This document shows, in pieces, positions 6,824 to 62,297 of a stretch of 64,000 bases of DNA. A model generated the notes under the pieces. It ran no database searches, had not been told where the DNA came from, and saw nothing but the letters and a program-made list of their open reading frames with translations. Where the stretch lies: contig OU612068.1 in the NCBI GenBank assembly GCA_914767715.1, forward strand, positions 30,010,001 to 30,074,000. Direction: 5' to 3'. Numbering within the stretch: position 1 is the stretch's first letter; the number at the start of each line of letters is the position of its first letter. The position numbers and the translations under genes are program-made. Source of the DNA: Membranipora membranacea. Lineage: Eukaryota; Bryozoa; Gymnolaemata; Cheilostomatida; Membraniporidae.

Positions 6824-7621
6824 AAAGGTCATCCTTATTGCACATGCGCACTTTGAGTTTCTGGACAATTGAAACACTAACCAAGAGGTAGGAGCACACA
6901 ACTGCTCACAAAATCAGCTTTTTTCAGATCACAAGCAATTCTGTTAGTTGTCTTATTTCTTGTTGGAGATGCACAACTACAATTTAGAACGCACATTTGA
7001 GCAGAACAAGGGGTTTTGAATTACAAATAAGGAGTTTTTGTATGTACATACATTTTTCTGTGCTCCATCCAAAAAGGGATCAGAAGTGTATTATCCCTTT
7101 AAGTATGAACTGTAATTCGATTAAAGGCAAACTAAATATCATAAAAACGAATGTTGTAGCTTTCGAGCCTGATATCATAGCGGTAACAGACTAAAATAGG
7201 AGATTTATTTGACGACAACGAGCTCCATGGTGTTTAATACACACTTTATAGGAAGGACAGAGTAAAGGGTGGAGGAGGAACACTCCTAGCTTTAGCGAAT
7301 AAATCTAGACTGACTATTCTCCAAACCACATATGGCCCAGGTGAGTCTGTCACACTGCAAGTCCAGATACATCCTAAGCTTAAATTGAAATTGATTGTCA
7401 TGTATCGACCTCCTAATGAATACTGCTTAGACACATTTGAAACTTTAATAGATGAGAATGCTCATGACAACTGTTTGATTGTTGGTGATTTCAACTTTCC
7501 GGATATCATTTGGCGAACTAAGGAAAGTGGTAGTAGTTATGTCAGGGCAAATTCTCATAAGAAAGCGATGTATACTAAAGCTCTTGATATTATTTGTCAC
7601 GCTGATCTTGTACAGTTAATA

Positions 7622-7640
7622 CAATGAACTTCCTTCATTG
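7622..7640. mobile_element. 19-bp palindromic micro-insertion with 7-bp target duplication
   Basis: CAATGAACTTCCTTCATTG sits between two copies of GTTAATA (7615-7621 and 7641-7647). Without the palindrome and one GTTAATA, the LINE endonuclease frame reads straight through (LVQLI then HEPTH), so the empty site is known. The insertion shifts that frame. It shares its ends with copies at 11564, 14734 and 39244. Confidence 0.85.
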
Positions 7641-8835
7641 GTTAATACATGAACCCACTCATCGCTCTGGCAACATTCTTGACCTTGTCTTGATAAATAA
7701 GCTTGCTCTTGATGATTTGCATGTTGATTGTGAAGTGAAACCGTACATCATTCTCTGATCATAAAATGATCCTTACCAACATCAAGACACAATGCTACAC
7801 TAAAGACACAGAAAACATCACACATCCTAAACGATATAACTTTAATAGAGCAGACTACACACTCATCGAGGAAAAGTATTCAAGTTTAATAAATTATTTC
7901 ACTAATGAAGCTACGTCAGAGGACAGTGTGGAACCTGGGAACGATTTCATCAAACAACAACAGATTCACTGTCTACCATCCCAGGTATGTTAAATCGTCC
8001 TAGGGGTCACCCTTGGGTTGACCGTGAATTGAAGCGGCTTATAAACAAGCGCGACAGAATATTCGATAGAAACCAACGCTTCCCTAGTATTGCCCATGAA
8101 GAGGAATACGACCATATATGTAAAACTATTAACGACAAGGTTACAAAAGCCAAGTCTAACTACCTTAAAGACAAGCTCACCAAACAAATGGAACATGGCG
8201 ATTCAAAACCACTGTATAATTATCTGAAGAAAAACAGTGGTAGGTCAAACAATATAACAACCATAAAAGACACACCTGTTGATCTAAACCCAGATAAACT
8301 GGCTGAACACTTCTCATCAGTGTTCTCAATGCAACAGCATAATGTGCCTATAATGGATGAAAAACTATGCAACTATGGAAAATATCCATGTTAGCAAAAG
8401 TGGAGTGGAGGCTTTGCTGAAACGCCTTGACCCTGGGAAGTCATGTGGTCCAGACAAACTATCTGCTATGACACTTAAATGTTTTCTAACTTTGTTCCTT
8501 CCTTTATAGATTGTGTACATTACATCATTAAGAAGAGCGTTATAATTAAGGATGGCAGAGTACCCAAGATATGGCGAGATGCTAACATCACCCCTATATT
8601 CAAGGGAGGAAACAGATCCGAGAGCAATAACTACCGCCCTATTAGCCTAACATGTATATTATCAAAAGCTACTGAACACATAATATGCTCAAATATGTGG
8701 CGACATATAGACGATTATGGTATAATATCCAACAAGCAGCATGGATTCAGAAAAGGTCTGAATACGACCACTCAGCTTCTGCACGTTGCACACTTTGCAG
8801 CTGAATGTCTAGATAGAAAGACTGATTACCACATA

Positions 8836-9209
8836 CCGTAATCCCTCACTTATAAGTCACCGGACTTATAAGTGAATCACCCCCCTCAGAAAAAATAAAA
8901 ATGCTGCAGCTATAAGACACCCCACAGCTATAAGACACCCCACCGCTCTAAGACACTCACTACACTACACTCACTACAAATGAACTAAGTAGTTTTGGGA
9001 AAAAAACTGCCCTCAGTGGGTTTAGAACTCACAACTCAATGTTTACAAGTCAACGCTCTACCACTGAGCTATTCATCTTCGTGATTAAAAGGTTTTGGTC
9101 CAAACTAGATATAATAATGCTTCAAATGATAGTCGTGTCTATATACTACTCTCTTATAGCCACCTTCACTTATGCGTCGTCCGCACGATCTATAGGTGAG
9201 GGATTACGG
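8836..9209. mobile_element. 374-bp TIR element inserted at TA in a LINE
   Basis: Terminal inverted repeats CCGTAATCCCTCAC / GTGAGGGATTACGG are bounded by TA on both sides (8834-8835 and 9210-9211). The interrupted reverse transcriptase frame resumes exactly if the element and one TA are ignored (TDYHI then VSFDFAKAF). A TA duplication fits the Tc1/mariner group, which is an inference. The interior has short GCTATAAGACACCCC repeats near the left end and an antisense tRNA-like segment. It has no ORF. Confidence 0.9.
9008..9079 (-). repeat. tRNA-Thr-like segment inside the TIR element
   Basis: On the minus strand TAGCTCAGTGGTAGAGCG matches the tRNA D-arm/A box, CTTGTAA fits an anticodon loop with TGT (Thr), and GTGAGTTCTAAACCCAC resembles a T-arm/B box with one stem mismatch and a changed TTC loop. 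The expected acceptor stem strands (AGATGAA and TGAGGGC) do not pair. This is therefore a tRNA-derived, SINE-like remnant and not a working tRNA gene. Confidence 0.6.
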
Positions 9210-10141
9210 TAGTTAGCTTTGACTTTGCAAAGGCTTTTGACAAAGTGCCTCACAATCTATTGTTGCATAAACTTGTGATCTATAAATTCAACCCTCATTG
9301 TATTAAATGGATTGAAGACTGGCCGACAGGCAGAAAATCTACTGTCAAGGTAAATGGCAGAACATCTTGTCAATTTGATGTCACCTCGGGTGTACCCCAA
9401 GGTTCTGTGTTAGGACCATTACTTTTCCTCATTTATGTTAACGATATGACAGATTCTATTGTACATTCTGATTGCTGACTATATGCAGACGACACCATTT
9501 TGTGTTAAGACATCAATTCACTGCAAAACAATGTAAATAAATTGTATGAATGGGCAAACAAATGGGGTATGCTTTTTAACCACAAAAAGTGTACACACAT
9601 GAAGATCGGTTCCGAGAAACCTAACATTCAGTTAAAGCTTGGTTCTGCTGATATACCACACTCTCACTCTCTAAAATATGTTGGTGTGAATATTGAATCC
9701 AACATGAAATGGAATAAACACATATCCAAAGTAGTCAAGAAAGCAAATCGTACCCTTGGCCTCATCAAAAGAGGTCTTCACGAAGCACCGATCAAAACTA
9801 AGCTTACTGCCTATAAAACTGTAGTGAAACCTCTTCTTGAATATGCATGTCAGGTTTGGTCGCCTCATAGTTCGGGGTTAAAAAATAGTCTGGAAAAGGT
9901 CCAGAGAAATGCCATTAAATGGGTGTATCATTTGACTCAGGATGACAGTGTTAACGATTGTATGACTAATCATGCCATGCCTCTATTATCGGATAGGAGA
10001 GATGATCTTGATGTAAATTTTCTGCGGAAAATTGAAGGAGGCTTGTTTGACATCAAGTTGAATAACTTCGTACGATTTGTATCAACATCACATGACACTA
10101 GAAACAAGACCATCAGCTGGCAGCACAACATTGATGCCTGA

Positions 10142-10505
10142 ACTTACAGCTATTTCAACAGGATAAGGCCAGAGGTGAAAATTTACTTTCCTCCTGACTA
10201 ACCACTGAATACATTCTAATCACTTACTAATCTAAAAATAAGTATATAGGTATTGTGTACGAAAAGGTCACACTGATCACTACAATTGAACCATTCTACA
10301 TCTATCTTCCGAGTGAACAATCACCACAACTTGTTAGATAAAACAAGTCAAGGTTGGGTTTTTCTTTTGTTTATTTTTTATATATTATATCTAAATTAGT
10401 AATAGCATCCGATAACCCCAGCGATAAACTCAGCGCAACACTGATGGTATATATCCAAATGTGCCCAGTGATTGTGGACGTATTGGATTAAGTTGAAGGT
10501 AAGGT
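10142..10505 (+). repeat. LINE 3' untranslated tail ending in GGTAAG repeats
   Basis: Directly follows the LINE stop codon and ends GAAGGTAAGGTAAGG, a short tandem tail typical of CR1/L2-like LINEs. Most of it is present in inverted orientation at 10742-10855 and 11420-11670, so a second LINE tail faces it tail-to-tail. Confidence 0.6.
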
Positions 10506-10509
10506 AAGG

Positions 10510-10615
10510 AAAAGCTAGGAGAAGCTTTCAGTAATTATTAAGAGTGAGTCAGTTATTGTCAAAGTAGAGGGCCATGGTTCGTGTAATTACTTAATTAATT
10601 ACTACCATTGTTGTG
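10510..10615. repeat. dispersed repeat shared with 4947-5055
   Basis: AGCTTTCAGTAATTATTAAG and the following roughly 90 bases, including GAGGGCCATGGTT and TTACTTAATTAATTAC, occur almost unchanged at 4947-5055. It lies between the two facing LINE tails. A hairpin with TAGTTAGTAG arms follows near 10635-10675. Confidence 0.65.
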
Positions 10616-10909
10616 TAAACGTATCTCACAAGCCCTAGTTAGTAGCCATATTATAGCTACTAACTAGTGCTTGCTCCAGTTGAGTCCCTCTGGATTGAGA
10701 ACAATTACTTCTTGGGAGAATGAGACTTAGGTATTTGTTTACTCCTTACCTTACCTTCAACTTAATCCAATACGTCCACAATCACTGGGCACATTTGGAT
10801 ATATATACCATCAGTGTTGCGCTGAGTTTATCGCTGGGGTTATCGGATGTAGCCATTTAAACCACTGCTGACACATCTGGGCTTTGCCAAACTGTGCCAC
10901 CATACAAAA

Positions 10910-11218
10910 ATTTAAATAGAGAGTTGTGGTATCAAAACATCTAGCCAGTAGCTTTGAATAGAGTTATATGAGCTCTCAAAATGTAAGGAGTATCTTCTTC
11001 CCCAGCCATCCACCATTAGTGATGACATATGTTGAGGTTGACCAATCAGGTTGGAGCTCAGCTAGATTTCAAAGGCACCTGATTGGTCAACCTCAACATA
11101 TGTCATCACTAATGGTGGATGGCTGGGGAAGAAGATACTCCTTACATTTTGAGAGCTCATATAACTCCATTCAAAGCTACTGGCTAGATGTTTTGATGCC
11201 ACAACTCTCTATTTAATT
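10910..11218. mobile_element. foldback element with about 140-bp arms
   Basis: From AAATTTAAATAGAGAGTTGT at the left to the matching inverted end near 11218, the two arms are almost identical, meeting at ACCAATCAGG / CCTGATTGGT with a short spacer. An 82-codon frame over it is a by-product of the hairpin and not a gene. Near-identity of the arms suggests it is young. Confidence 0.75.
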
Positions 11219-11247
11219 TTTTGTCTGATGGCTATGCTGGGCAAAGC

Positions 11248-11382
11248 CATGGGACCCTGGGACTAACATGTCTTTACTTTGCCAATGTCCACTATCAACC
11301 ACCCAAAAAACGACATGGTGTTTTTTGGGTGGTTGATAGTGGACTTGGCAAAGTAAAGACATGTAAGTCCCAGGGGCCCATG
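11248..11382. mobile_element. hAT-like MITE, second copy, 135 bp
   Basis: Same family as 1266-1389: starts CATGGGACCCTGGGAC and ends GTCCCAGGGGCCCATG. It is flanked by the perfect 8-bp direct repeat GGCAAAGC at 11240-11247 and 11383-11390. It has inserted into an older foldback, whose GGGCAAAGCCCAG end it interrupts. Confidence 0.88.
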
Positions 11383-11563
11383 GGCAAAGCCCAGCTGTGG
11401 CAGTGGTTTAACATTCTTATTCTACATTACTAATTTAGATATATTTTATTATATAAAAAATAAACAAAAGAAAAACTCAACCTTGACTTGTTTTGTCTAA
11501 CAAGTTTTGGTGATTGTTCACTCGGAAGATAGATGTAGAATGGTTCCATTGTAGTGGTCAGTG

Positions 11564-11587
11564 CAATGAACTCCCTTCAGTTTATTG
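11564..11587. mobile_element. 24-bp micro-insertion of the CAATGAACT family
   Basis: The element begins CAATGAACTCCCTTCA and ends TTTATTG, flanked by GTCAGTG (11557-11563) and ATCAGTG (11588-11594), a 7-bp duplication with one mismatch. The inverted paralogous repeat near 10270-10290 has the uninterrupted site (TAGTGATCAGTGTG when read in this orientation), proving insertion. Confidence 0.78.
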
Positions 11588-11689
11588 ATCAGTGTGGACT
11601 TTTCGCACACAAACAACAATACCTATCTATTTCTATACTTACTATATACTTATTTTTAGATTGCTTGCTTTAACATCTAGACTGGGTGT

Positions 11690-12096
11690 ATGATCAAGGA
11701 GTAAATTGGTATGAATATAACATGGATGTTTATGTGCACAATAACAATAAGCCTGTCTTACCAAATGTCAGTTGGAAGAGCTTGTGTCTGGTTTCCACAC
11801 ATGAGTCATGACTAGCAAAGCTTGATATATTAGCTCTGATGACTAGTATGTAAAAGTATCTCATGCTAATGTATCTGCGCCTGCGCATTTGTACAGGAAG
11901 TACGAGCTGACCTTAGTACGAACTGGAAGTACGAATGTGCACAAGTACGAAACGATATAGATTCGAAGACATAGCTCCAATGAGTGGCAAATGGGGGGGG
12001 AGTCGGCTGAGCCCCTTTATCAATATCAGATATCTAAACTAGACATAATACTTAATAAGTGGTTGCAGGGAATGAGAAAAGAAATTCCCACTCAAT
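11690..12096. other. no gene seen
   Basis: Repeat-flanking sequence with no frame or RNA gene I recognise. It contains a homopolymer run of eight G around 11993. Confidence 0.5.
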
Positions 12097-14610
12097 ATGG
12101 ACCCTTTTGATCCTTCCAAGCTACCTTGTTGGCCCATTTGTGAATTGATAAAGGGTCCGGCCCTGATCAGCTTTCCCCTGCCCTTCTTCACTTTCTTGCT
12201 CCATATGTTGTTGTTTGCATTACCACGTTATTTCAGTATATTTACGACTCTCACACTTGTGTATGGATGGAAGTCAGCCCATGTTATTCCTCTGTACAAG
12301 AAAGGTAGTAAAACTAACCCTCTAAACTACAGACCTATCTCGCTTACTTGCATTCTATGTAAAATATTTGGACATGTTGTAGCCCATAACATTCACAATT
12401 ACTTTTCAGATCATAACCATCATCATCATCAACACCAAAACAACAGCACAGAAGATAGAATTGGTGCAAAATGACGCCATCAGATTCATAGGCAACCTGA
12501 AGGGCTGTGGTGCGAGTGTGACCGAAGCCAGGAATCAGCTAGAAATTGGGTCGCTGGAAGAAAGGCGGAGAAATCATCGGCTGTGTCTGCTCACCAAGAG
12601 TTCTTCAGAACGAGAACCAACACCATGCTCTCTCTAAAGCATATAATGAAATCACCGAAGACAGGGAAAAAGCTACAATGACCACCAGAGCAGCCGCCAG
12701 AGGTGAACCTAACTCTGTTGCCACAAACAAAAGTATTTACCACGCCAGTTTCCTGCCTCGGACAATCCGTGAGATGAGAGGGCAGAAAACCGCCCAACCC
12801 TAAACAGTGCCATGCTATTAAAACCACATTCCCTGGTCTAAACCTTGGTCCTAACATTTAGAGGCATCCCTAAACCGATTTCTTCGACAAATCAATAGGA
12901 TGTGCTACCTCATCTGAGGTAAGAAACTGAGGTAAGAAACACGGATTCTGTAAAAAGCATGGGTGCGACACCCAGCTTTTAAATACTGTACAGGATCTTG
13001 TAAATTTTTATGATGAAAATATTCCTGTGGACATCGCAGTTTTGACTTTTCGAAGGCCTTCGACGTCGTATCGCATAAAAAACTATCCGAGCAGATGCGC
13101 GTCATTGGAATAAACAACAAAACTCGTATGTGGATAGATTCGTGGCTATCCGACCGCCTTTTGTTTGTTACCGTAAACTTCGTTAAGTCTACGGCTAGAC
13201 CGGTTACGTCTGGGGTACCCCAAGGCAGCGTTTTAGGGCCTCTGTTATTCTTGATATTTATAAATGACATGCCGTCGCAAGTATCAACTAGCACTCTCAA
13301 ACTTTTTGCCGATGACTCCTTATTGTATCATCCCATTTCTAGCTCGACTGATAAAATGGACTTCCAACTTGACCTAAACAGACTTTATGACTGGACAAAA
13401 TTTTCACAAATGTCTTCTAATGTTGAAAAATGTCAGCATATGTGTATCGCTAGGAAATCATCAAATCACACTGTAACCCAGTACTCAATGTCTTCTGAGA
13501 TCATTGAAACTGTCAATGAAGTAAAATACCTAGGTGTTATTGTTGATAACAAACTTTCCTTTCCTAACTTTCCTTTCCTTTCCTAATGACAAATTTGTAG
13601 CAAAGCTAATAAGGTTCTGTTTATGCTCATGCGTAATCTTAAAAAGGCACGTCCTTAAGCCCGTAGACTAGCCTTTATTACCATTTGTAGGCCCAAATTA
13701 GAATATGCATGTCAAACATGGTCTCCACATCTGAATAAGCATGTGGACATGATTGAGGCTATTAATGGAAAAGCATTTCGTTGGTGTTATGGCATGAATA
13801 AGTTTGATAGTATTTCTCATCTTATGTTGTTTCACATTTGGCCTGACTTGAAAACAAAAAGGGCTGACTGTGATCTTTCCATGTGCGCTAGAATCGTTAC
13901 AGGTCAGGTCGCTCTTGATAAAGAGCGATTTCTACCACGCCAAGCGGATGAACGCTCGACATGATACGGAGGCACCAAGGGTAACATTAACACCGATGTG
14001 AAGAAGTACTTTTTCACCAATCGACTACACAGAGCTCCCTGACCAGACCTCATCCCACAGCCCATCTACTCCCTCCCCATTCCAGTGTGCTAATTTGTGT
14101 CTGCCATACTGATTATAGTTCTCTGTGTTATTTTTCTCATAATTACGTATATGAATTTCACATCTCATATGTACCTAGTCCTGCGCAATTCCTTCAGATA
14201 TGCCACTGAGAGATTTTTCAGACCGGTGGTCTCGTGCGGTCCGTCCATGTGTCTATCTCTACTGTATGCGAATGGGTTTATACTACCAACTTACTGATAC
14301 TAAGACATCTTGAGCATTATTACACCTCTAACCCAATTAACCCCCACACTATGGTTTGAGATTCGAAACTCTCCTGCTGAAATCAGGGCCTTTTTCACGC
14401 ACTTCACTGTGATCTAGTTGTGAGTCGTGGAATTCCGGCTGCTATAAACTGTTCCTAAAAACTGCATCTTTAATTCTGCCAATTTTCTTTGGACATTCAG
14501 CTGTCACTGACTACTGCCCTACCAATCACTGTACAGATGGGCTGTAAATCACTATAGAGGAGCATCAACGCCCGACGGTGATATAACTAAAGACAAAGAC
14601 AAAGATCAGT
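12097..14610 (+). pseudogene. second LINE ORF2 copy, rearranged and decayed
   Basis: Reverse transcriptase blocks appear in order: VIPLYKKGSK and NYRPISLTCIL (about 12285-12355), a corrupted KHGCDTQLLN stretch (about 12955), SGVPQGSVLGPLLFLIFIND (about 13208), LFADDSLLYH (about 13303, catalytic FADD), KYLGVIVDNK (about 13525) and LEYACQTWSPHLNKH (about 13700). A TTTCC-rich microsatellite breaks the frame at about 13560. Between 12440 and 12870 lies a piece from the C-terminal end of another LINE (IELVQNDAIRFIGNLKG, GSLEERRRNHRL), so the copy is a mosaic. The 3' end appears to be the ACAAAG short repeat near 14590-14606. It is divergent from the copy at 7085. Confidence 0.8.
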
Positions 14611-14733
14611 ATTCCAGCTGGAGTATATGAAGAAGATCAATATTTCTGACGCTAGCCGCTTGCAAGCCCACTATTCTATCAACAAACAATATTTATCATC
14701 TACAAACACTAACTACCCTGTCCCTAGCTAGAC

Positions 14734-14765
14734 CAATGAACTACCTCTGAAGAGGGAGTTCATTG
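14734..14765. mobile_element. 32-bp palindromic micro-insertion with perfect 7-bp duplication
   Basis: Arms CAATGAACT / AGTTCATTG enclose ACCTCTGAAGAGGG, itself partly self-complementary. It is flanked by GCTAGAC at 14727-14733 and 14766-14772, an exact 7-bp direct repeat. This is the longest member of the family seen and may be closest to the full-length form. Confidence 0.85.
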
Positions 14766-14772
14766 GCTAGAC

Positions 14773-15660
14773 CCTGGCTAGACTTGGTCACTACTAAATT
14801 TACTACTAAAATACATCACAATGACTTACTAACTAATGACTTATTATTATTTTATTATAGATATGTAACTGACTCTACCTACTACCAGGTTCAAATTACT
14901 CACCTCTAGCTTTGGTACTGCCATCCTAATCATAGTCCATCCAATGATTAAGTTATCACTTACCCCCCCCCCCACCCTCATCATCATGGGACAATGAGAC
15001 TGCCTTTACTTTGCCAATGTCCAGTACCAACCAACCCCAAACAAGGAGTAGGCCTAACAGCTGTAACAAGCTGTGAATCCCATAATTTTTATTAAGTCAT
15101 GTGGGATGATGTGATATTGTTCTTGTATATGTGGATGTGTGGGGGCCCCACTAGAGTTGTAGGCAATGGCAAGGCACATTGGTTTTGCAAGCATGTTATT
15201 ATGATTTTATGGGCGCCATATTATATTCCATGGATAATCCATCTGGTAAAGCCTGAACTGAATGTGGAAAAATAGCTTCTTCTTAACTGTTACCTAGCAC
15301 TCTAGAGGGAGGACATAATAACAGAAATAAAAAGAGTGTTGATGACACCTGGTGACAGCATATCGCATGCCTGTCTCTCTGTAGAATAAATAGGAAAGAC
15401 TGGACCAGTCGATGACCAACGTTTCATTAATTGTTAACGGTGATGTTTATCAATACATTCAAGTGGGAAACTGACATGAACCGCTCCTGTGTGTCTTGTA
15501 CTGAGAGTCTCGACCCTTAGAAAGAAGGTTAAAATGTATTGAACATGACGGGAATTGGTGTACTGAAATGACCTATGGTCAATTAGTAGAACCACAGAGA
15601 TGGTGTAGTCTAAATCATTACCCCCCCTCCCCGCATAATTTGTGTACAGAACACATGTAT
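14773..15660. other. upstream flank of DNAJC30, with a decayed MITE half
   Basis: CTTTACTTTGCCAATGTCCA at about 15007 is one arm of the hAT-like MITE without its partner. A C-run interrupted by A lies near 14960. A splice-acceptor-like TTTTTGTTGTAG at 15661-15672 directly before the DNAJC30 start suggests a 5' UTR intron in this stretch, but I cannot place its donor. Confidence 0.45.
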
Positions 15661-15674
15661 TTTTGTTGTAGATA

Positions 15675-16373
15675 ATGCAATCCTGCTGTGTCAACTACAT
15701 CAAGAACCTGTACCAGTTCATGCCCAGCAAATCGCTAGCTAATCCCATACGGTGTAACAACTTTCATACAACAAACAAGAACCGAAATCAAAAGTTCAAA
15801 TCTGCCACATATTATTATGATGTCCTGCACATCACCCCAAAAGCTACAAATAAACAGATAAAAGCTGCATTCTACCGATTGTCAAAACTTCATCATCCTG
15901 ATGCTAACATAGAAACTGGATCCATAGAGAAGTTTCATGAAATATCTGAAGCCTATGAAGTGTTAGGGAATCACTTTAGTCGTAGGAAGTATGATAGAGG
16001 TCTAATAAGACCGGAGCAGAGGACAGCTACAGCAGAAAATGAGGGAAATCAAGAAACGGCCTTCAAACCAGGTGCCTTCAAGGCTAGAGGCCCTATACAA
16101 ACTGGCCGTACTAAATACTATAATTTCGATGAATATTATAAGCAGCATTATGGAGACTGTGTGAAACAACAATTCCAAAAGAGACACGGTAAAGAAGTAG
16201 CGAGTAAAGCAGAACCCAAAGAAGAGATTCATGATTACACTCACCTAGTAGAAGATCCCATAATGGGCAGGATATTTGTGGGTTTAGGCCTCACCTTAAT
16301 GGCTGTCTACATTTGTATAGCTGCAAATCCTTCTGTTACCAAAAGACTGGAGGAGACTCCCAAATCGAAGTAG
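15675..16373 (+). CDS. DNAJC30: DNAJC30-like mitochondrial J-domain protein
   Basis: A single coding exon of 232 codons plus stop. Residues 1-40 are basic and nearly acid-free, fitting a mitochondrial presequence. The J domain spans about 46-110: YYDVLHITPKAT, the HPD catalytic loop at 74-76 that stimulates Hsp70 ATPase, and FSRRKYDRGL at its end; the YDRGL ending is characteristic of DNAJC30. Residues 146-158 (KYYNFDEYYKQHY) match the second conserved DNAJC30 block (N-F-D-x-F/Y-Y). A single membrane helix at about 201-220 (IFVGLGLTLMAVYICIAA) near the C-terminus agrees with inner-membrane anchoring. In mammals DNAJC30 associates with ATP synthase and helps complex I repair; a role here is inferred from orthology. 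The gene ends 291 bases from the convergent VPS37 stop. A methionine at residue 16 is an alternative start. Confidence 0.92.
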   Translation: MQSCCVNYIKNLYQFMPSKSLANPIRCNNFHTTNKNRNQKFKSATYYYDVLHITPKATNKQIKAAFYRLSKLHHPDANIETGSIEKFHEISEAYEVLGNHFSRRKYDRGLIRPEQRTATAENEGNQETAFKPGAFKARGPIQTGRTKYYNFDEYYKQHYGDCVKQQFQKRHGKEVASKAEPKEEIHDYTHLVEDPIMGRIFVGLGLTLMAVYICIAANPSVTKRLEETPKSK

Positions 16374-16664
16374 GATCTTTTGTGGATATAAATGCTATAT
16401 TTGCTAGTCCTTGCAAGCCTAACCCTGTGATTGACTTTTAATATGCTCAATGACCTCATGCATTATAATGAATAGGCATGGTCTCGTTTTCATTGACATA
16501 TGTGATAAACTATTTTTGTACCTGGTAGGCAAGTGACATAAAAATATACTAAGCATACAGTTTATAAATATTCACAAATTTTAAAGGATTCAAATTTTCA
16601 AATAGGATGTGTAATAATAACTACAGTGTGAGTGTGATGCAGAAGTTACAAGTATCGTTGTCTA

Positions 16665-18563
16665 TCAGTTTGACACTGGTGGTAAGTGTAATTGTGGCAT
16701 AGCCGGGTTACCATGCATCGGATATGGAGGATTGCCACCAGAGCCTGGGTATCCGGTATTGTGTGAAGTATTAGCTCCACCCCATGTACCATGACGAGCA
16801 TGCTGCTGTATCATTTCTCCCAATTTCTCAGACTTAATTTTTAGTAAATGTGTCTTAGTTCTCTCTTCCATGTATTTATCCAAAAACTCTTCACAGTCTA
16901 TGTTCTTATCCAGAAAGGTCTCGCTTAAACGCTAAAAGTAAAAATATCAACCATACATAACATTGAGTTGGTATTCAGGCAAGAAAAGGCAAGCTCCTTG
17001 CTTCACATCACTGTTTGTTGCAAAGAAAATTCATCCTATGCATGTCAAACAAATAGGTAACATTTCAAAGACTGGCTTTCCACATAAGAGGGAACAAAAC
17101 TCCCGATGCAAATTACACCTCATTCAGTAAACTTGAACATATGTATTACACTCACATCAGTGTCTTCCTCACTTTGTGCTGCTTTAGTCTGAAGCAAAGC
17201 ATGTGTGGTATCAAGAGACTGTCCCTCACTGGAAGAGTCTACAGTGCAACATGAATGAGAATAATATGCGTAAGACAAGAAAGTGACCTCACAACCACAT
17301 AATTATGTATATACAAGTTATCAAATACCGTAAACACATAAATCCTACTTTATATATCTATTTATGTCAAATTCAAATTGATAAACTAGTGATGAAGATG
17401 TAGTAAGTTATAACAAACAAAAAACAACCCATTGTTCGATGGCAAAGCCAGCATGATGAGCATCATGTCCGTTGAGGTTTTGGAGCATCGAAACCCGTGG
17501 CTAGGTACGAACAGTGTTCATTTATGAAAGAAAAAGCCCCAAATCTAGTTAACGCATAACATTAATCATTTGTTTTGCGCTTGCCACACATTGAGTGGAG
17601 ACGCACTATCACTTTGTTGGAGTTGAGACCAATCAACATTGGGTATTTCCGGCATGTCATTGCGATACATCAACAATGCATCGCAGGATAACGGAATTCC
17701 AAATATTTACATAGTTATCAAATAGACAGAGTGAAATATCAAAGATGTAAGCTATCGATGGAACAAACTGCATGTTACTCTGCTGACATAAACAGTATAC
17801 GCTGTCTGTATACTTAGTGTGGAGCTATGAGGAATGAGTCATTACAATACAGCTCAGCTATAAAATGCTTGCATCTCCATACACCAGGTAAATAGATTTG
17901 AGAATACAATTTCAGAACTATAGACAGTAATGCGGTTATAACAATATAACGAGGGACTTAATCAGTATCAACTGGCTATATGGGGCCAGTCTACATACCA
18001 AGCACTGATCGCAAGGTATCATACTCCTCTTTAAGCTTGCTGACTTTCTCATACTGTAAGATCAGATATTCTCGACCTTGATTGATCCTGGGCTGTAACT
18101 TCAGGTTGTATTCTGCCAAGCTCTTATTACTGGTTATCAGTATTTCTTTATCTTGAGACAAGTCCCTCACCTTGAAATTTCATTATTCGAGTTACCAAAG
18201 AATGATGATGTAAAAGTTCAAAGGCTTGTATGAATGTTGTAACGGCAATGTACTGCTGGCCTAAAGGGAATTAAGACTCAATTTAAAATGCGTTCATTTG
18301 TTGTATAGAGATTATCAATTTCAACAAGCCAAGGACTTGATTTTTACCAAACTAGGGCGGACCTTACAATCTTTGAAATAATTGTGGAACCGAACCTGCT
18401 GCAAGTCGTTGACTAAATCATCAAGTTTTTCATCATTATCATTGAGTCTCTGCAATTCATCCTTATCTAAATAAGTGAGAACACCCAGCGCCTCAGTCTC
18501 ATTAAAACTCATAGCTCCGTTGTTTCTGTTCGACACTCTGTGAAGTGTGTTTTCTCGCTGCAT
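16665..18563 (-). CDS. VPS37: VPS37 subunit of ESCRT-I
   Basis: Four coding exons on the minus strand (18563-18396, 18170-17999, 17238-17156, 16931-16665) join in frame to 229 codons plus stop; every junction is GT-AG. The Mod(r)/VPS37 domain covers most of the protein. It includes LQRLNDNDEKLDDLVNDL, KEILITSNKSLAEYNLKLQP (the hallmark ASNxSLAExNL block), EYDTLRSVLDSSS, HALLQTKAAQSEEDTDRL and FLDKYMEERTKTHLLKIKSE. The C-terminal tail is Gly/Pro-rich, as in VPS37B/C, and probably unstructured. VPS37 pairs with TSG101, VPS28 and MVB12/UBAP1 on endosomes to sort ubiquitinated cargo. A TTTTTTTCAG acceptor lies two bases upstream of the chosen ATG, so a 5' UTR exon is likely. The vertebrate A/B/C/D paralogue cannot be assigned. 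Confidence 0.93.
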
Positions 18564-18651
18564 CCTGAAAAAAACCCACAACTTATTACTCTTCACTTAC
18601 TCACTATTTACTTATCACTCTCTATCTCCCCCTCCCTCATTCTATAATAAC

Positions 18652-18688
18652 CATAAACATATAAATACTAAGTATTTATATGTTTATG
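18652..18688. mobile_element. 37-bp palindrome with 8-bp target duplication
   Basis: CATAAACATATAAATA and its exact inverse are separated by CTAAG. The hairpin is flanked by ATAATAAC at 18644-18651 and 18689-18696. It has the anatomy of an extremely small foldback insertion, distinct in sequence from the CAATGAACT family. The AT-rich context makes chance more likely here than for the other family. Confidence 0.65.
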
Positions 18689-20932
18689 ATAATAACTATT
18701 TCACACTCGTATGAGATCAAAGAGTTTTTACCAAACCATTATTAAGCTGACATTTGAATCATTAAAAGCTTATCTATTAGGAAAGAGCGAGCTAGATCTC
18801 GAGATGAATTAAGTTGTCACAAATCATATCTCATCGCCACAATCAAGCAAGTGGTTCATGGGGTTTACCATCATCCTTGACAGCCCTCCTTCACAGTAAG
18901 CTAGCAAGCGTAGAGATGTCTCATCATTGCCATATGCAGCGTATTAATAATTTCTATTTTCCGATCCCGATCATAAAGAAATCAATGTCCACAAAGCGCA
19001 AATAAGAGTAAAATCACACTGAAGATGATGCATGGTACTACTCATAAGCCTAAAGAAGGAGGAATTTGACCTTACCACTACAGTACAATACTCCTGCAAA
19101 GATTTCAAACATGTTCCATACAGTATGATATAACATATATATATGACAACTAGATTAGTCTGAGCCCCCAGACCACTGCCCCCGCCCGACAGCCCCCCGC
19201 TTAAATCGATGAAGTTTAGGCCTAAGCTCAGGTGCTAAACACAGTGACAATACCCAATTTATAGCCCATTGCTAGCTGAGATTATATACGATGTTACTAA
19301 TTGTACGTACATACTGTTCATCTAACAACAAATTCAGATTACATAATTGGAAGAAAATCTTGTTTTACCTTCTTAATAAACTATGCACTGCTCTGTGATG
19401 GGCTGATTGTATTCGATGTCAATACAACAAGTTACAATAACTTGTGATTCTTTGGTTGTTGCTGGCTGATCCCTAGCTGTGTTGAATGACAGATAGTTCT
19501 ATAAAAGAAGAGTCTATGATGACAGATAGATTTGTAACTGAGACACTGTGTGATGCTGAGTCACGGTTGACTTAGATAAATTGTTGAACTAGTACTACTA
19601 GTACTATCTAATCTATATCACTATCAGTGACTATATATTTATTATAGTTAGAAACTGTTGACTCACTCACTGAAATTCTTTTTCTACCTCCGTTCAAAAC
19701 TTCACAATGTTCACAGATACTCTAGACAATAGACAGCATCTGTTTGGACAATACAGTATTTTACAAACGTTGAACAATTACAGTCCAAATTGTATACATT
19801 TCCTACACTTTTTCCAAAAAGAATATTTACAGAATATGTTTGTTGATGAAACAGGAAATAAGTTTAGTAGCTAAAAAGGAAAAAACTAGAGTCATCCAAA
19901 GATCTTTTTATGCAGGAGGGCACAACTCCTCTAACTATCAGAAACTATATCTCTACAACTGAATTTTGATCCTCTTTTAGGGCACTGAAAGCCCAAAAAC
20001 ATAAAAAATTCTAAATTTTAAGTAACCTATCACCTATTATGAGTTAAATTATCGGGTTTTAGCGCCATTATCTGGCAATTAGCATCAGATTAACTTATCA
20101 ATTCTTCTGCGGATGTGTTGACTCTGTCCGCCATATTGATTGCGCTCAATGGACAATAACATTGTAGTAATTCAATGAAGATCAAGTAAAACATATGATA
20201 TGTCATCAATTTTATGAATCATCAGTGTGTTCACAATCGCAAGTATCATGTATACATTGCCATGGCTCAACACATACTCCTATGACATATGAGTGGATAG
20301 GTGAAAAGATTAAATGTTGTGTGAGGTAAGATATGGTTACGGTATTATTAGTATAAGAAGGAATGAATTGGTTGGACGGCAAAAGCTCTACAATAATTGT
20401 TTTCAATAGATAGGATGGTTGGTTTAAACTCAATTTGTTGGATAAATAGAGACCATGTTAACATTTACCTAGAATTATAGTTGGTAAGGTAGCTAGCGAA
20501 GCTATGTGAGGAATTTGTAGCTGTCAGATTAAGGATTTTGAATAAGAATGAAGGATTTAGTCTCACTCACTCTTAGATTATTATTTACTTAGAACAATTT
20601 GTTGATGGTGGCATAATAATATCACTAAGTTAAGTAAGTTGGTAACAATGTTACCATCGTCCTAATAGTCAAGCAAGCAAATAGCAATCTGTGATTATTG
20701 TCTTTTGGCATGTTTGTTACCATGACAAGAGCGGGAACTTGGATTGATCCCACTCAATCATAGATAGGTCTACTAGAAAATCACGGCTGTGGAGAGCGGG
20801 TATAAGTTAATTTATTAATCTACATTGTGACACACTACTATGGCTCCTTGCTTGACCTAGCAAACAAAACTTTTACATGACACGGCCATAGATAGGCATC
20901 TGGATTTTCCATTTTCAAAGCCTCCTAAACAT

Positions 20933-20968
20933 CAGATTCAAGGCAAACTGATTTTGCCTTGAATCTGG
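20933..20968. repeat. 15-bp inverted repeat hairpin upstream of KAT6
   Basis: CAGATTCAAGGCAAA returns as TTTGCCTTGAATCTG after a short loop, about 230 bases before the KAT6 start codon. It could be a small foldback remnant or an RNA or DNA hairpin. No target duplication was seen. Confidence 0.55.
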
Positions 20969-21191
20969 TGCATATGATTTTGATGGCAAACTTTTTCCTA
21001 TTATTATATTTGTTTCATATTAGACGCAAGATTGCAAGTAGGCCTGTGGAAGCACACAGCACTGGGTTGGGCGTTTTAGCAAATATGTGCAGAGTCCTAT
21101 ACCTGTGGGGGTAACCTAAAACATATGAAAACACTTTTGCAGCTGCTGTGGAGGCGAAACTAACCGCCTTGAGCTGTTGTGACATCTCACA

Positions 21192-36972
<15,781 letters not shown>

Positions 36973-38049
36973 CTAGTTATTATAAATATCTCAATTTTCT
37001 GATTTTTTACTTTTATAGTTGACATGAAAATGTGTAGGTGCATACACCCTGCATAGTTTAATGCAAATGCAAGAAACACTCTTTGTTATGAACGACTGCT
37101 GATTCCAATCGCAGCATATGCCTTTTTTTCTGTATTTTTCCGATTGAATACATAATGCGTCTCGAAAAATTAAAAGAAAAAATGAGGTATTGAACCATGA
37201 AACTATTTTGTTATTCAATTCTTGCTTTTATCCATTTTTCTTGATGTTTTTCTCTGCTTTAGTCGATTTATTTATTTTTATGTTTCATCTCTTACACTGG
37301 AAGTGAAGCATTTTGTCCAAGTAACTAACTCTCTGCTTCATAATGATTGTTATACATTATTTGCAATCATTCATAATTGTACATGGCAGCATTTATATGT
37401 GATTAAAACTAAAACGGTTAACTTGAGGAATATCATAGGTTGGTTCAGTTTAAGACTCTCACTTTTCACTCTGGTCATCACTTTATGATACAGCTTTGGT
37501 CATCAACATATCAACGGAGTTATCTGGCATTATGCCTCATCATTAACATGGCATTAGACCAAAAGGGAATTTTGTATCAGATTCAAACAAAACAAGCCGA
37601 TCACAGTCTACCTTCCAACTCTTCAAATTTGGCTGCACATGGAGAAGCTTGCTGAATGTCATACATCCAAATCTCGCAGCAAACTTTGTGTTTGTGACAA
37701 AATAAACCAACCAACTCATACAAACTCTCTCACACACTGCCATTTATTTAGACAGTATGTATGCTGGTATTGTCAAGAGCGCACATATTTGTTGTCTGGA
37801 TTGTGATGCCCAAACTGCTAATGGGATATCTGACAACAGGAAAATCTGCGTTTTCAGTTTCAGACAAATCAACATAATCAATACCTAATATTAAACAGTA
37901 TTATAGTGCCAAGAAAACGCAACTTTAAAGTCAAGTTGGTTATATTTATGCTCATCATATTCATGCGGAGGCCATACATTGTGCCCTTGGGCTGTCACTT
38001 CATTAGCTTGATAGATAGACATAGATCTTGCTCATACATACTGTGGCAG
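36973..38049. other. KAT6 3' region and upstream flank of the sodium channel gene
   Basis: The KAT6 3' UTR followed by a possible promoter for the ENaC gene. Candidate poly(A) signals include AATAAA near 37699. No additional coding exon was recognised. Confidence 0.45.
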
Positions 38050-41000
38050 ATGATGGAGAAGGTGAGTATAATGGGGTATGAGTATTTATGTAAATATATT
38101 ATAATACAATATCCAGGTTTATAGTTTCTTATGCAGCCTGGCTATTCACAATTATACCGTTTTATAAAAATAAAAACTTGTGTTTTTATATTCGTGATCA
38201 TATGTTTTATTTTATTAATCTTTTTCAACATCTCAGAAAAATGATACATGGAGTAAGGATGAGGATTCGCGCAGCAGCTCATTTCATACCTTTGCCTCAT
38301 CAACGACAGCGCATGGATTTTCACGCCTGGTCGAAGCTAAACACATCATACGTAGAGCCGTGTGGTGTACTTTATTAGTGACAGCCGGTATAGGAGTGGT
38401 CACTGTACTGGGTATCAGGTCAGAAAACTACTGCACAAATATGACATTAAAATTATCACTTGTGTTCATCTTGTAGATTGAAGCGTGGCTAAATATTAAA
38501 GCTCATAAATAAAATGTTAACATAGAGGCTCAATTTGGCTTCATACTGCTTCTGACGAGGTTTTGTACATTTTTTTTAGTTTGATTGATTTGTCGAATGT
38601 CAAATTACCTCACACTATTGAACAAAGGAGAAACAGGTTGCTCCTTGATTGAACTGTAGCCTGGTCAGCTGTAGAAATAGAGTCATGCAAGTGGCAAATA
38701 ATCGATAGATAGGTATTTTATTTTGGTACTTTTGTCTAAATAGTACTAAATGACAGAGCCTTGTTTCCGCAGTACTTTGTAATTTAATTACAAAGTACTT
38801 TGGAAACGAGGCTGTCATATAATACTGTTTAGAATCTTTACACTCTGTGGCACAAAACTCTCCAAAAATCTGTTGGTTCTTGTCCTCGGCATCAGGAACT
38901 GTGACCTTCCTCTGACATAACAGGAATGTAAAATATGTTCTTCAACAGTAATAGACAGTTTTCTGAGCCCTTATTTATGGCTCAATTCGGAGTTGTCCTC
39001 TCTCCAGTTTGGTACTTTTAACCCAGGCCGCATAGGAAAAACGTGCTGAAAGAGGGTTATCTTGAAAACCGCTTATGTAAGGATAAAAATGGCTTTTGAT
39101 TCAGAGTCTGCCCCATTGAAAACCCTGCAAACAGGGTTTCCAAATCATTGGAGGCTTGAATGTTGATACATCTTAATTTTAGTGATGAAACTCGTGAAAA
39201 ATTATGCCAAATGGTCAGCAAAATAGGCAGAAAATGCTATAATCAATGAACTCCCTTCATTGCTATAATTGACTATCCAAATACTAAAATTTTTTCCCAA
39301 ACTATGTCCATATGAGTTTTCAATGTTTCAGATTCTGAATCAAAAATAATCTTTATCCTATTATGAGCGGTTTTCAAGATAACCCTCTTTTCAGCACGTT
39401 TTTTCTATGCGGCGTGGGTTAAAAGTACCAAACTGGAGAGAGGACAACTCCGTATTGAGGCCTAAATCAGAAGTCAGAAAACTGTCTATAAAGCCTGTTT
39501 CCAGCTTTTGAACACTGTCCGAGATGAAAAACTTCATATCAAGCTCAAAAGATTGTCTGTGAAAAAGACCAGTTAGCTTCCTTCGCTTTTTTTGTGTGGC
39601 TGACATATACCACATCTCAATAATATAGCGCAACGGGTCTGTAATCATTGTTTTCTTTAGGGTTCACTTCGTTTGGCACAGGGACCATGTTAGGAGAGTT
39701 CCCATAGGTTTGGAAGCCTGCCTTCAGAAAGGCAACTCTCAAAAATATCACAGAAAACTGGGCAAAAGAAAAATAACATGAACGACTTTAAAGTGCAACC
39801 AAGGTTTCGAACAACTTCTCATTGATGGCCATTGATTCATAGCAGATAGCACCTTCTGCATGGGGAAAAAGACAAAATATAATTCGGATGATTATTCAGC
39901 CAGAATTCTTGTGAAACATTTCTTCCATCAGGTACTCAAACTCAGCTAAAAGAGAATACCACATAGCAGTTTCCTGTTCCTGTTATTATTTAGCCAGTGC
40001 TCTATAATTATTACAGCAAAGTCTTGGAACCTCCCCTAAACTGAAGTGTTACCCAGCTTAGAGTCAGCAACTACTTTGAGTTTTGCATCGCGTAATGCAC
40101 AAAGCTGATGCTGCCCAGCACATTATTTGCTATTTAATGCATTGCTGCGAAACCTTGGTATCTTAGCACTTATATTATCAGGGCCACTAGCTTTATCAGT
40201 CTTACACATCCGTAACTGCTTCCGGACTTCAGCCACACTGATATCTGGAGTCAGGGCAATATCAGTTTCAGGTCTGCTTGGCTCACTGTTACTGGGTGGG
40301 TCATTGCATCCACTGCTGTGTGACTGCTCACTGCTGTTAGTATAGTGGTCTGCATTATCATCAGAGGTGAATCTATTATAGAAGATGTTCTTCTCGTTGG
40401 CCAACTCAAACTGCTTCGTTGTTGAAAGGTGGTCATAGTTATCCCTTATCTTTGTTTAATCCTGACATGTTTTTAATCCCTTGCCAGGCTTTTTTTCATG
40501 TTTTACGACATGTTACTTAGCATCTTGTTCTTGTATGCTACTTTGGCTTCTGTAACGTGTTTGTTTATGTCCTTCTGTGTAGATTTTGCTTGAGTGAGGT
40601 CATTAGATTTTATGTCCGGCAACCTTTTTTGCCATCAGTGATTTTATATCTGGTGTTAATCATGACTTAGTAAACATCAAACCTCTGTGATTATCTGTAT
40701 TATAATATATACACGGACATCACAGCGCACTGCGTGTTCATATATTGGTTGTTCCATATTGTAGATTAAAAGAGTTTCTACAATTTAATACAATCTCAGA
40801 ATCAGATATAAGATCCGAGCCATATTTTGAATTCCCAAGTGTCACCATATGCAATCATAACCTGTGAGTATTGTGATTACTTAGTAATGTTGTGATGGTG
40901 AGGATGATGGTGATAATGACGATGATGTTTCTCATGATCATTGTGTCGAAAGTTTCAGCAACTATTTGAAAAATCCCAAATGCGACTGGTTTCAGCTTGA

Positions 41001-49244: not shown

Positions 49245-62297
<13,053 letters not shown>

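Follow-up and report, generated by a model that had tools for sequence, protein, structure and literature searches.

The subject of this report is a 64,000-nucleotide stretch of the Membranipora membranacea genome (contig OU612068.1, positions 30,010,001 to 30,074,000; referred to below as the window), in which four short palindromic insertions of the CAATGAACT family are each set between 7-bp direct repeats. Judged from their sequence, these micro-insertions are very probably the excision scars of a cut-and-paste transposon of P type, from the 7-bp, Galileo-like branch, which were sealed by end joining. The original prediction had placed palindromic micro-insertions at the same four loci, three with exact 7-bp flanking repeats and one with a single mismatch, and all of these sequences and flanks were verified. 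The scars, and the two empty sites found for them, are as follows.

Scar 1: 7615..7647, no strand assigned; 19-bp CAATGAACTTCCTTCATTG at 7622-7640, exact 7-bp repeats GTTAATA/GTTAATA.
Scar 2: 11557..11594, no strand assigned; 24-bp CAATGAACTCCCTTCAGTTTATTG at 11564-11587, repeats GTCAGTG/ATCAGTG with one mismatch.
Scar 3: 14727..14772, no strand assigned; 32-bp palindrome at 14734-14765, exact repeats GCTAGAC/GCTAGAC.
Scar 4: 39237..39269, no strand assigned; 19-bp CAATGAACTCCCTTCATTG at 39244-39262, exact repeats CTATAAT/CTATAAT.
Empty site for scar 2: 10271..10403, minus strand; arm of an inverted repeat, paralogous to the scar 2 flank and lacking the insertion.
Empty site for scar 4: 27377..27892, plus strand; paralogue of 38950-39490 without the scar.

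Scar 2 (11564) interrupts an arm of a long inverted repeat, the opposite arm (10271-10403) being uninterrupted, and when the paralogue at 27377-27892 is set against the scar 4 site the gap is exactly 26 bp, that is, 19 + 7. Three empty sites had been predicted in the window; those for 39244 and 11564 stand, whereas for the third, BLAST with 200 bp from each side of 7622 and of 14734 brought up no paralogue in the window.

The excess over chance in the window was assessed in several ways. A family-specific scan recovered four places (14734 was recovered from both strands and counted as one), compared with none in 40 dinucleotide-preserving shuffles. A sequence-blind scan for inverted ends of at least 6 bp and a length of 10-60 found six sites with 7-bp repeats and none in 25 Markov-3 windows; three of the six belong to the CAATGAACT family, one (61432) to a second end family, and two (28279 and 37344) are weaker. 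When the null was obtained from the real sequence by offset, the same class (7-bp repeats, ends of 6 bp or more) gave 6 sites where 0.19 were expected at 12-40 bp, none where 0.25 were expected at 41-80 bp, none where 0.44 were expected at 81-200 bp, and 2 where 0.69 were expected at 201-600 bp. For comparison with outside DNA, 165 palindromes that have this form by chance were taken from 164 viral and prokaryote loci; none had a flanking repeat of 6 bp or more, and two had one of 5 bp.

Across the genome that was searched (339,339,785 bases in 18 contigs), the pattern CAATGAACT-N0-30-AGTTCATTG gave 1,818 matches, and the reversed pattern one; as the pattern is palindromic, the forward and reverse counts form one set, in which nested and segmentally duplicated copies are included. 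Positions were listed for 50 of the 1,818. Flanks were sampled at 40 loci, chosen by palindrome or for other reasons and not by flanking repeat or stub length (a stub being a piece of the element's end left on the flanking DNA), and among the 30 testable, non-overlapping palindromes 23 had an exact repeat, three had one mismatch and four had none adjacent. Three of these last four (L185, L186 and L187) have the repeat farther out, past extra filler, and one (L174) has none. The maximal repeat length was exactly 7 in all 23 exact cases. A genome-wide recurrence of the pattern with 7-bp repeats outside it had been proposed as a check, and it was borne out for the pattern throughout and for the repeats in the sample whose flanks were read. 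A further 20 loci, selected because they hold 18 nt or more of one of the longer ends described below (T1), had an exact 7-bp repeat in 12 of 15 testable matches.

The duplicated target itself shows a preference. At 35 sites with CARKGR ends, position 2 favours T and position 6 favours A (0.80 each), and G or C is commonest at the ends (position 1: G 0.41, A 0.29, C 0.24, T 0.06); the counts were symmetrised, so that the symmetry follows from the way of counting. Six window sites hinted at an 8-bp duplication that lacks one base, an idea rejected with the 35 sites, where no such bias at the flanking positions was left.

Longer elements with the same ends exist. The ends fall into two subfamilies with 33-bp terminal inverted repeats, CAATGAACTCCCTCTTCCTCAGGAATAACAACA in T1 and CAATGAACTAAACCTCA... 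in T2. The T1 18-mer CAATGAACTCCCTCTTCC has 172 forward and 176 reverse matches in the genome and the 24-mer 38 and 40; of 16 facing 24-mer pairs, read by eye, 11 span 863-892 bp. Paired 18-mer ends led to seven longer elements of 274-1,590 bp, about 95-99% alike in their shared interior, with a 7-bp duplication that is exact in five and has one mismatch in two. Both ends of L195, L196, L198, L199 and L200 carry the 33-bp repeats, whilst L197 and L201 are internal deletion derivatives in which one end is cut to 19 nt and fused to internal sequence, which is what incomplete repair of a break inside the terminal repeat should leave. An eighth element, L243, is 2,163 bp long, has the exact 7-bp repeat CTTTACT and shares 94% identity with L196 across 868 bp; it was rejected as an autonomous copy, since its interior holds a reverse-transcriptase stretch and not a transposase. 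The proposed search for longer elements with these ends thus yielded eight with 7-bp duplications, but none with a transposase reading frame. An end variant, CAATGAACTTCCTCTCAGG, occurs at seven places in the genome, none of which was followed to a new element. The 17-nt end of T2 has 87 + 78 genome matches, and among the 100 of these 165 places that were listed, read by eye, no facing pair at 0.1-10 kb was seen. On contig C3 (18.7-19.4 Mb) nine T2 end matches share one orientation, with six of the eight gaps at about 40-52 kb, which suggests a large segmental tandem array.

The small forms end within these repeats at a common limit. The 20 places chosen because they carry 18 nt or more of T1 comprise two intact ends (L217, L220) and 18 scars, and 15 of these scars have 18-20 nt as their longest match to T1. 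From this limit, together with the fall from 348 ends at nt 18 to 78 at nt 24, we infer a cut near nt 18-20. Two 40-bp scars with different repeats, L205 and L206, are each exactly 20 + 20. When 25 T1-type scars were compared with the first 20 nt of T1, 11 were exact stub + stub and 4 overlapped by 1-3 nt; the members of this set have CAATGAACTCCC ends and were chosen because a 7-bp repeat, with no more than one mismatch, flanks them, roughly half also because their stubs are long, and two duplicated events enter it twice (both L168 copies; L194 and L222). At L165, L186 and L187 there is filler resembling both stub and flank, as is typical of break repair. Nested or tandem scars, with flank and stub repeated, were seen at L176:150-178, L186:5037-5084 and L187:4699-4781 (reverse-strand coordinates for L187), as if several rounds of templated repair had taken place.

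The ends, 7-bp duplications, empty sites, longer elements, stub limit and filler can be read directly from the sequence, whereas the stubs would have been created by cleavage in the following manner. A transposon with 33-bp terminal inverted repeats would insert and generate a 7-bp target duplication; its transposase would later cleave about 18-20 nt inside each terminal repeat, so that stubs stay on the flanking DNA, and end joining would seal these directly, by microhomology or with templated filler. The remaining product would be a 7-bp repeat, a stub, an inverted stub and the second 7-bp repeat. That the insertions might be repair footprints of a larger element had been one suggestion of the original prediction, and it holds up well, as longer elements exist, most small forms amount to two stubs of at most 20 nt, and P elements leave the same anatomy; its other suggestion, of end-only relics that were themselves mobilised, is not needed.

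A P-like enzyme was predicted from the deep cut before the P-domain search was made. PF12017 then gave 78 matches in the genome and PF21787 at least 134 (the best 150 of 211 candidates being scored), and neither domain was matched in any of 14 control genomes. Of the six P-type loci that were fetched, four had ends that could be defined. Two 4.9-kb P elements have perfect 31-bp repeats (CATAGACCTACTAATAATAAACCTAGACAGG) and 8-bp duplications, and one of the 4.9-kb elements, L190, has THAP, PF12017, PF21787, PF21788 and PF21789 domains; L192 and L191 are about 6 kb long, with CATAGAGTT at their ends and duplications of 8 bp, and no element ends could be defined for L193 and L194. The scar pattern of the CATAGACCT family of P elements gave 149 genome matches and its reversed control 17. 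Of 20 such scars fetched, 16 have exact 8-bp repeats and four have repeats with one mismatch; 17 have a longer stub of 18-21 nt, and in the other three it measures 12, 16 and 24 nt. The P-transposase elements of this genome thus leave scars of this same kind, from which the CAATGAACT scars differ in their ends and in a duplication of 7 instead of 8 bp. L194, which holds a 754-aa P-type transposase reading frame and is 99.3% identical to L222 over 6.4 kb, was considered with L222 as the autonomous partner and rejected, no CARKGA ends with a 7-bp repeat being found. Near 6587-6714 of L222, about 127 bp flanked by the 8-bp repeat CCAGTGGT are present in one of the two copies, a recent short insertion. 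On contig C2 a T2 end (7594129-7594145) lies between a PF12017 match (7593247) and a PF21787 match (7594388).

Several observations weigh against the interpretation as P-type excision scars. No CAATGAACT element with a transposase was found, all eight longer elements being non-autonomous, and of the 78 intact 24-nt T1 ends none lies within 10 kb of the 212 P-domain matches, the nearest being at 66.5 kb (the chance expectation for such proximity is about 1, and the P domains are PF12017 and PF21787 only). The P elements with definable ends (four of six loci) have CATAG ends and 8-bp duplications, not CAATG ends and 7-bp ones, and on this ground the full P elements of this genome were rejected as the direct source of the CAATGAACT scars. 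No interior of a T2 element was seen. The reversed control gave a considerable number of matches for the P scar pattern (17 against 149), and one P scar, L230, matches to 24 nt, which a chance match of the filler could explain. Within the T1-type set, 10 of the 25 scars are not plain stub + stub and have filler or another end variant. Three scars match T1 past 20 nt (L203 to 23, L204 to 25 and L211 to 21), an excess that would fit filler copied from the other stub, or chance. One 26-mer makes up nine of the 50 listed places, and as its joint overlaps by 1 nt only, microhomology does not explain the recurrence. Finally, palindromes in the window with 5-bp ends and 7-bp repeats exceed expectation at 201-600 bp too (9 against 2.69). 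This last excess may consist of longer elements or of tandem-repeat artefacts.

We infer a P-superfamily enzyme on two grounds: P transposase is the one for which so deep a cut has been described, and elements encoding P transposase leave the same scars in this genome; the assignment stays at that level since no autonomous CAATGAACT copy was found. The 7-bp duplication is Galileo-like, the terminal inverted repeat of 33 bp compares with about 31 bp in the superfamily, and the target is GTNNNAC-like. As in an excision footprint, the duplication is kept on both sides with end sequence, and in some cases filler, between the copies, and both empty sites and full-length forms exist, although the empty, scar and full forms come from different loci and are not alleles of one locus.

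The literature describes close counterparts. P transposase makes a 17-nt staggered cut inside a 31-bp repeat and an 8-bp duplication (PMC7776569), and end joining, one of the main ways in which breaks left by P and Sleeping Beauty are repaired, is described as yielding footprints of overhang plus duplication (PMC3878927). PMC10983969 and PMC2874221 contributed nothing decisive. Drosophila P footprints share with the scars reported here the long stub on each flank and the overhang sequence between target duplications, and probably the cut inside the terminal repeat (PMC7776569, PMC3878927). They differ in dimensions, with 17 nt, 31 bp and 8 bp where the present family has a limit of about 18-20 nt, 33 bp and 7 bp, and in that over a thousand scar-like palindromes are found here in a single genome assembly. 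Galileo, a member of the P superfamily in Drosophila, has 7-bp duplications, rarely 8, with the consensus GTANTAC/GTATTAC (PMC4168063), to which the T2/A6 target positions and the G/C preference at the ends correspond; it has very long terminal repeats and a transposase-coding segment, whereas here the repeats are 33 bp and no coding copy was found. The CATAGACCT P family of the same genome is alike in its palindromic scars between target duplications, the longer stub mostly of 18-21 nt, and both it and the CATAGAGTT family are unlike in their 8-bp duplications, different ends and the presence of a transposase. The CAATGAACT copies of 0.27-1.6 kb resemble miniature inverted-repeat transposable elements (MITEs) in being non-autonomous with terminal inverted repeats and target duplications, whereas the 19-46 bp forms would be repair products and not elements.

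Most likely the mechanism is known in kind, that of P-type excision footprints, and what is new is the scale, the 7-bp/20-nt variant and a possible scar-only subfamily. This modifies the original prediction, which knew of no described family with this anatomy: the long-stagger excision of P and its footprints have been described (PMC7776569, PMC3878927), whereas no genome-scale family of palindromic P-type scars is described in the literature searched, which comprised part of the whole and few subscription journals. The chances seem to us evenly balanced that this is a P-like lineage with 7-bp duplications and a cut at about 20 nt, present as more than 1,800 scars and a few dozen intact non-autonomous copies, of which T2 (CAATGAACTAAACCTCA...) survives as scars only.

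Among the other explanations, the one that retains some weight, unlikely as we consider it, is that the scars come from another superfamily, known or new, which also cuts about 20 nt inside its ends and makes 7-bp duplications. That no P-type transposase gene was found in or near intact CAATGAACT elements would be accounted for in this way, and the CAATG, CAAGG and CAGGG ends also fit the hAT end rule YARNG. However, the hAT target duplication is 8 bp, and the maximal exact repeat in the sampled cases is always 7. In hAT, moreover, hairpins form on the flank and random footprints result (PMC3878927), the 17-nt staggered cut sets P apart from other characterised cut-and-paste transposons (PMC7776569), and the 7-bp duplications with a GTNNNAC-like target match Galileo. 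The same anatomy is also left by the P elements of this very genome.

It is improbable that the small forms are extreme internal-deletion derivatives, shrunk to their ends when the gap repair that follows excision was aborted. Clear internal deletions with one end of 19 nt do exist (L197 and L201), and such derivatives grade into scars because both arise from repair of the same break; however, one side should then often exceed 18-20 nt, and in 15 of the 18 long-stub scars neither does. Palindromes of intermediate size are also few, with none in the window at 41-80 bp (ends of at least 6 bp, 7-bp repeats) and three with 7-bp repeats at 46-80 bp in 276 kb including the window; one of the three, the 55-bp L170 with CAAGGAGTT ends, looks like a long scar.

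Hardly any probability remains for mobile micro-elements, in which the 19-46 bp palindromes themselves would be copied or moved in trans as ultra-short MITEs. Identical forms do recur, namely the 26-mer mentioned above, a 21-mer at two separate loci and a near-identical 19-mer at two window sites with a separate 7-bp duplication at each. Most listed small forms, however, differ in length and junction inside the limit of two stubs of about 20 nt, they are without nt 21-33 of the terminal repeat that are common to the longer copies, and the filler and repeated flank and stub copies at L165, L186 and L187 are as in break repair; 19 bp, we would argue, leave scarcely any room for two transposase sites in synapsis. 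A chance origin, as palindromes or simple repeats whose flanking repeats are accidental, could singly explain window candidates with other ends (28279, 37344, 42297). For the CAATGAACT family it is refuted by the 1,818 matches against one, the empty shuffles and the 165 unrelated palindromes, and its probability is negligible.

If the interpretation as P-type excision scars is correct, this would be a transposon family known from its wounds, and one animal-like genome would hold a natural library of over a thousand break-repair products, each scar being one natural end-joining event in which microhomology and filler are measurable. Scars of this kind would record the departures of transposons as well as their landings, of which element counts alone miss the former, and would allow the cut position of a P-type transposase to be estimated from genome sequence without biochemistry. 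A scan for end palindromes with exact duplications could reveal extinct transposon families in other genomes, where unrecognised scars look like unexplained micro-insertions in genes and alignments.

Other end families with 7-bp repeats, CAAGGAGT, CAGGGAGT and CAGGGAGGG, occur in the same fetched loci. Scar-like sites with CAGGGAGT, CAGGGAGGGTGGGA and CAAGGAGT ends and 7-bp repeats were noted at L180:9046-9070, L181:9169-9202, L187:1302-1335, L182:5098-5115 and L170:4789-4843. Within the window, the candidates with other ends are the following.

Second end family, scar-like: 61425..61460, no strand assigned; CAAGGATTTCAAGAAATCCTTG at 61432-61453 (CAAGGATTTC... ends), exact 7-bp repeats ATACAAG.
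Third end family, scar-like: 54781..54812, no strand assigned; CAGAGAGAATTCTCCCTG at 54788-54805, exact 7-bp repeats GTCACAG, from a looser scan.
Possible scar, other ends: 28272..28304, no strand assigned; TGTGTATTTTCATTACACA at 28279-28297, GCAAAGT repeats, possibly chance.
Possible scar, other ends: 37337..37376, no strand assigned; TGATTG...CAATCA at 37344-37369, TTCATAA repeats, possibly chance.
Possible scar of the type with 8-bp target duplication (CATA... ends): 18644..18696, no strand assigned; 37-bp palindrome with 18-bp arms at 18652-18688, repeats ATAATAAC.

The window is eukaryotic by content, with reverse transcriptase, a DnaJ gene and long non-coding stretches at a GC content of 39%. 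Viral contigs gave no match to the 19-mer, and phage records none to window positions 38900-39550; with the reverse-transcriptase queries, one search of viral contigs returned nothing and another five stretches, none encoding a relative. Broken reverse transcriptase pieces lie at 7987-10141 and 12097-13586, with scar 1 just upstream of the first, and a tandem repeat with a unit of 141 bp in 2.7 copies occupies 51463-51845.

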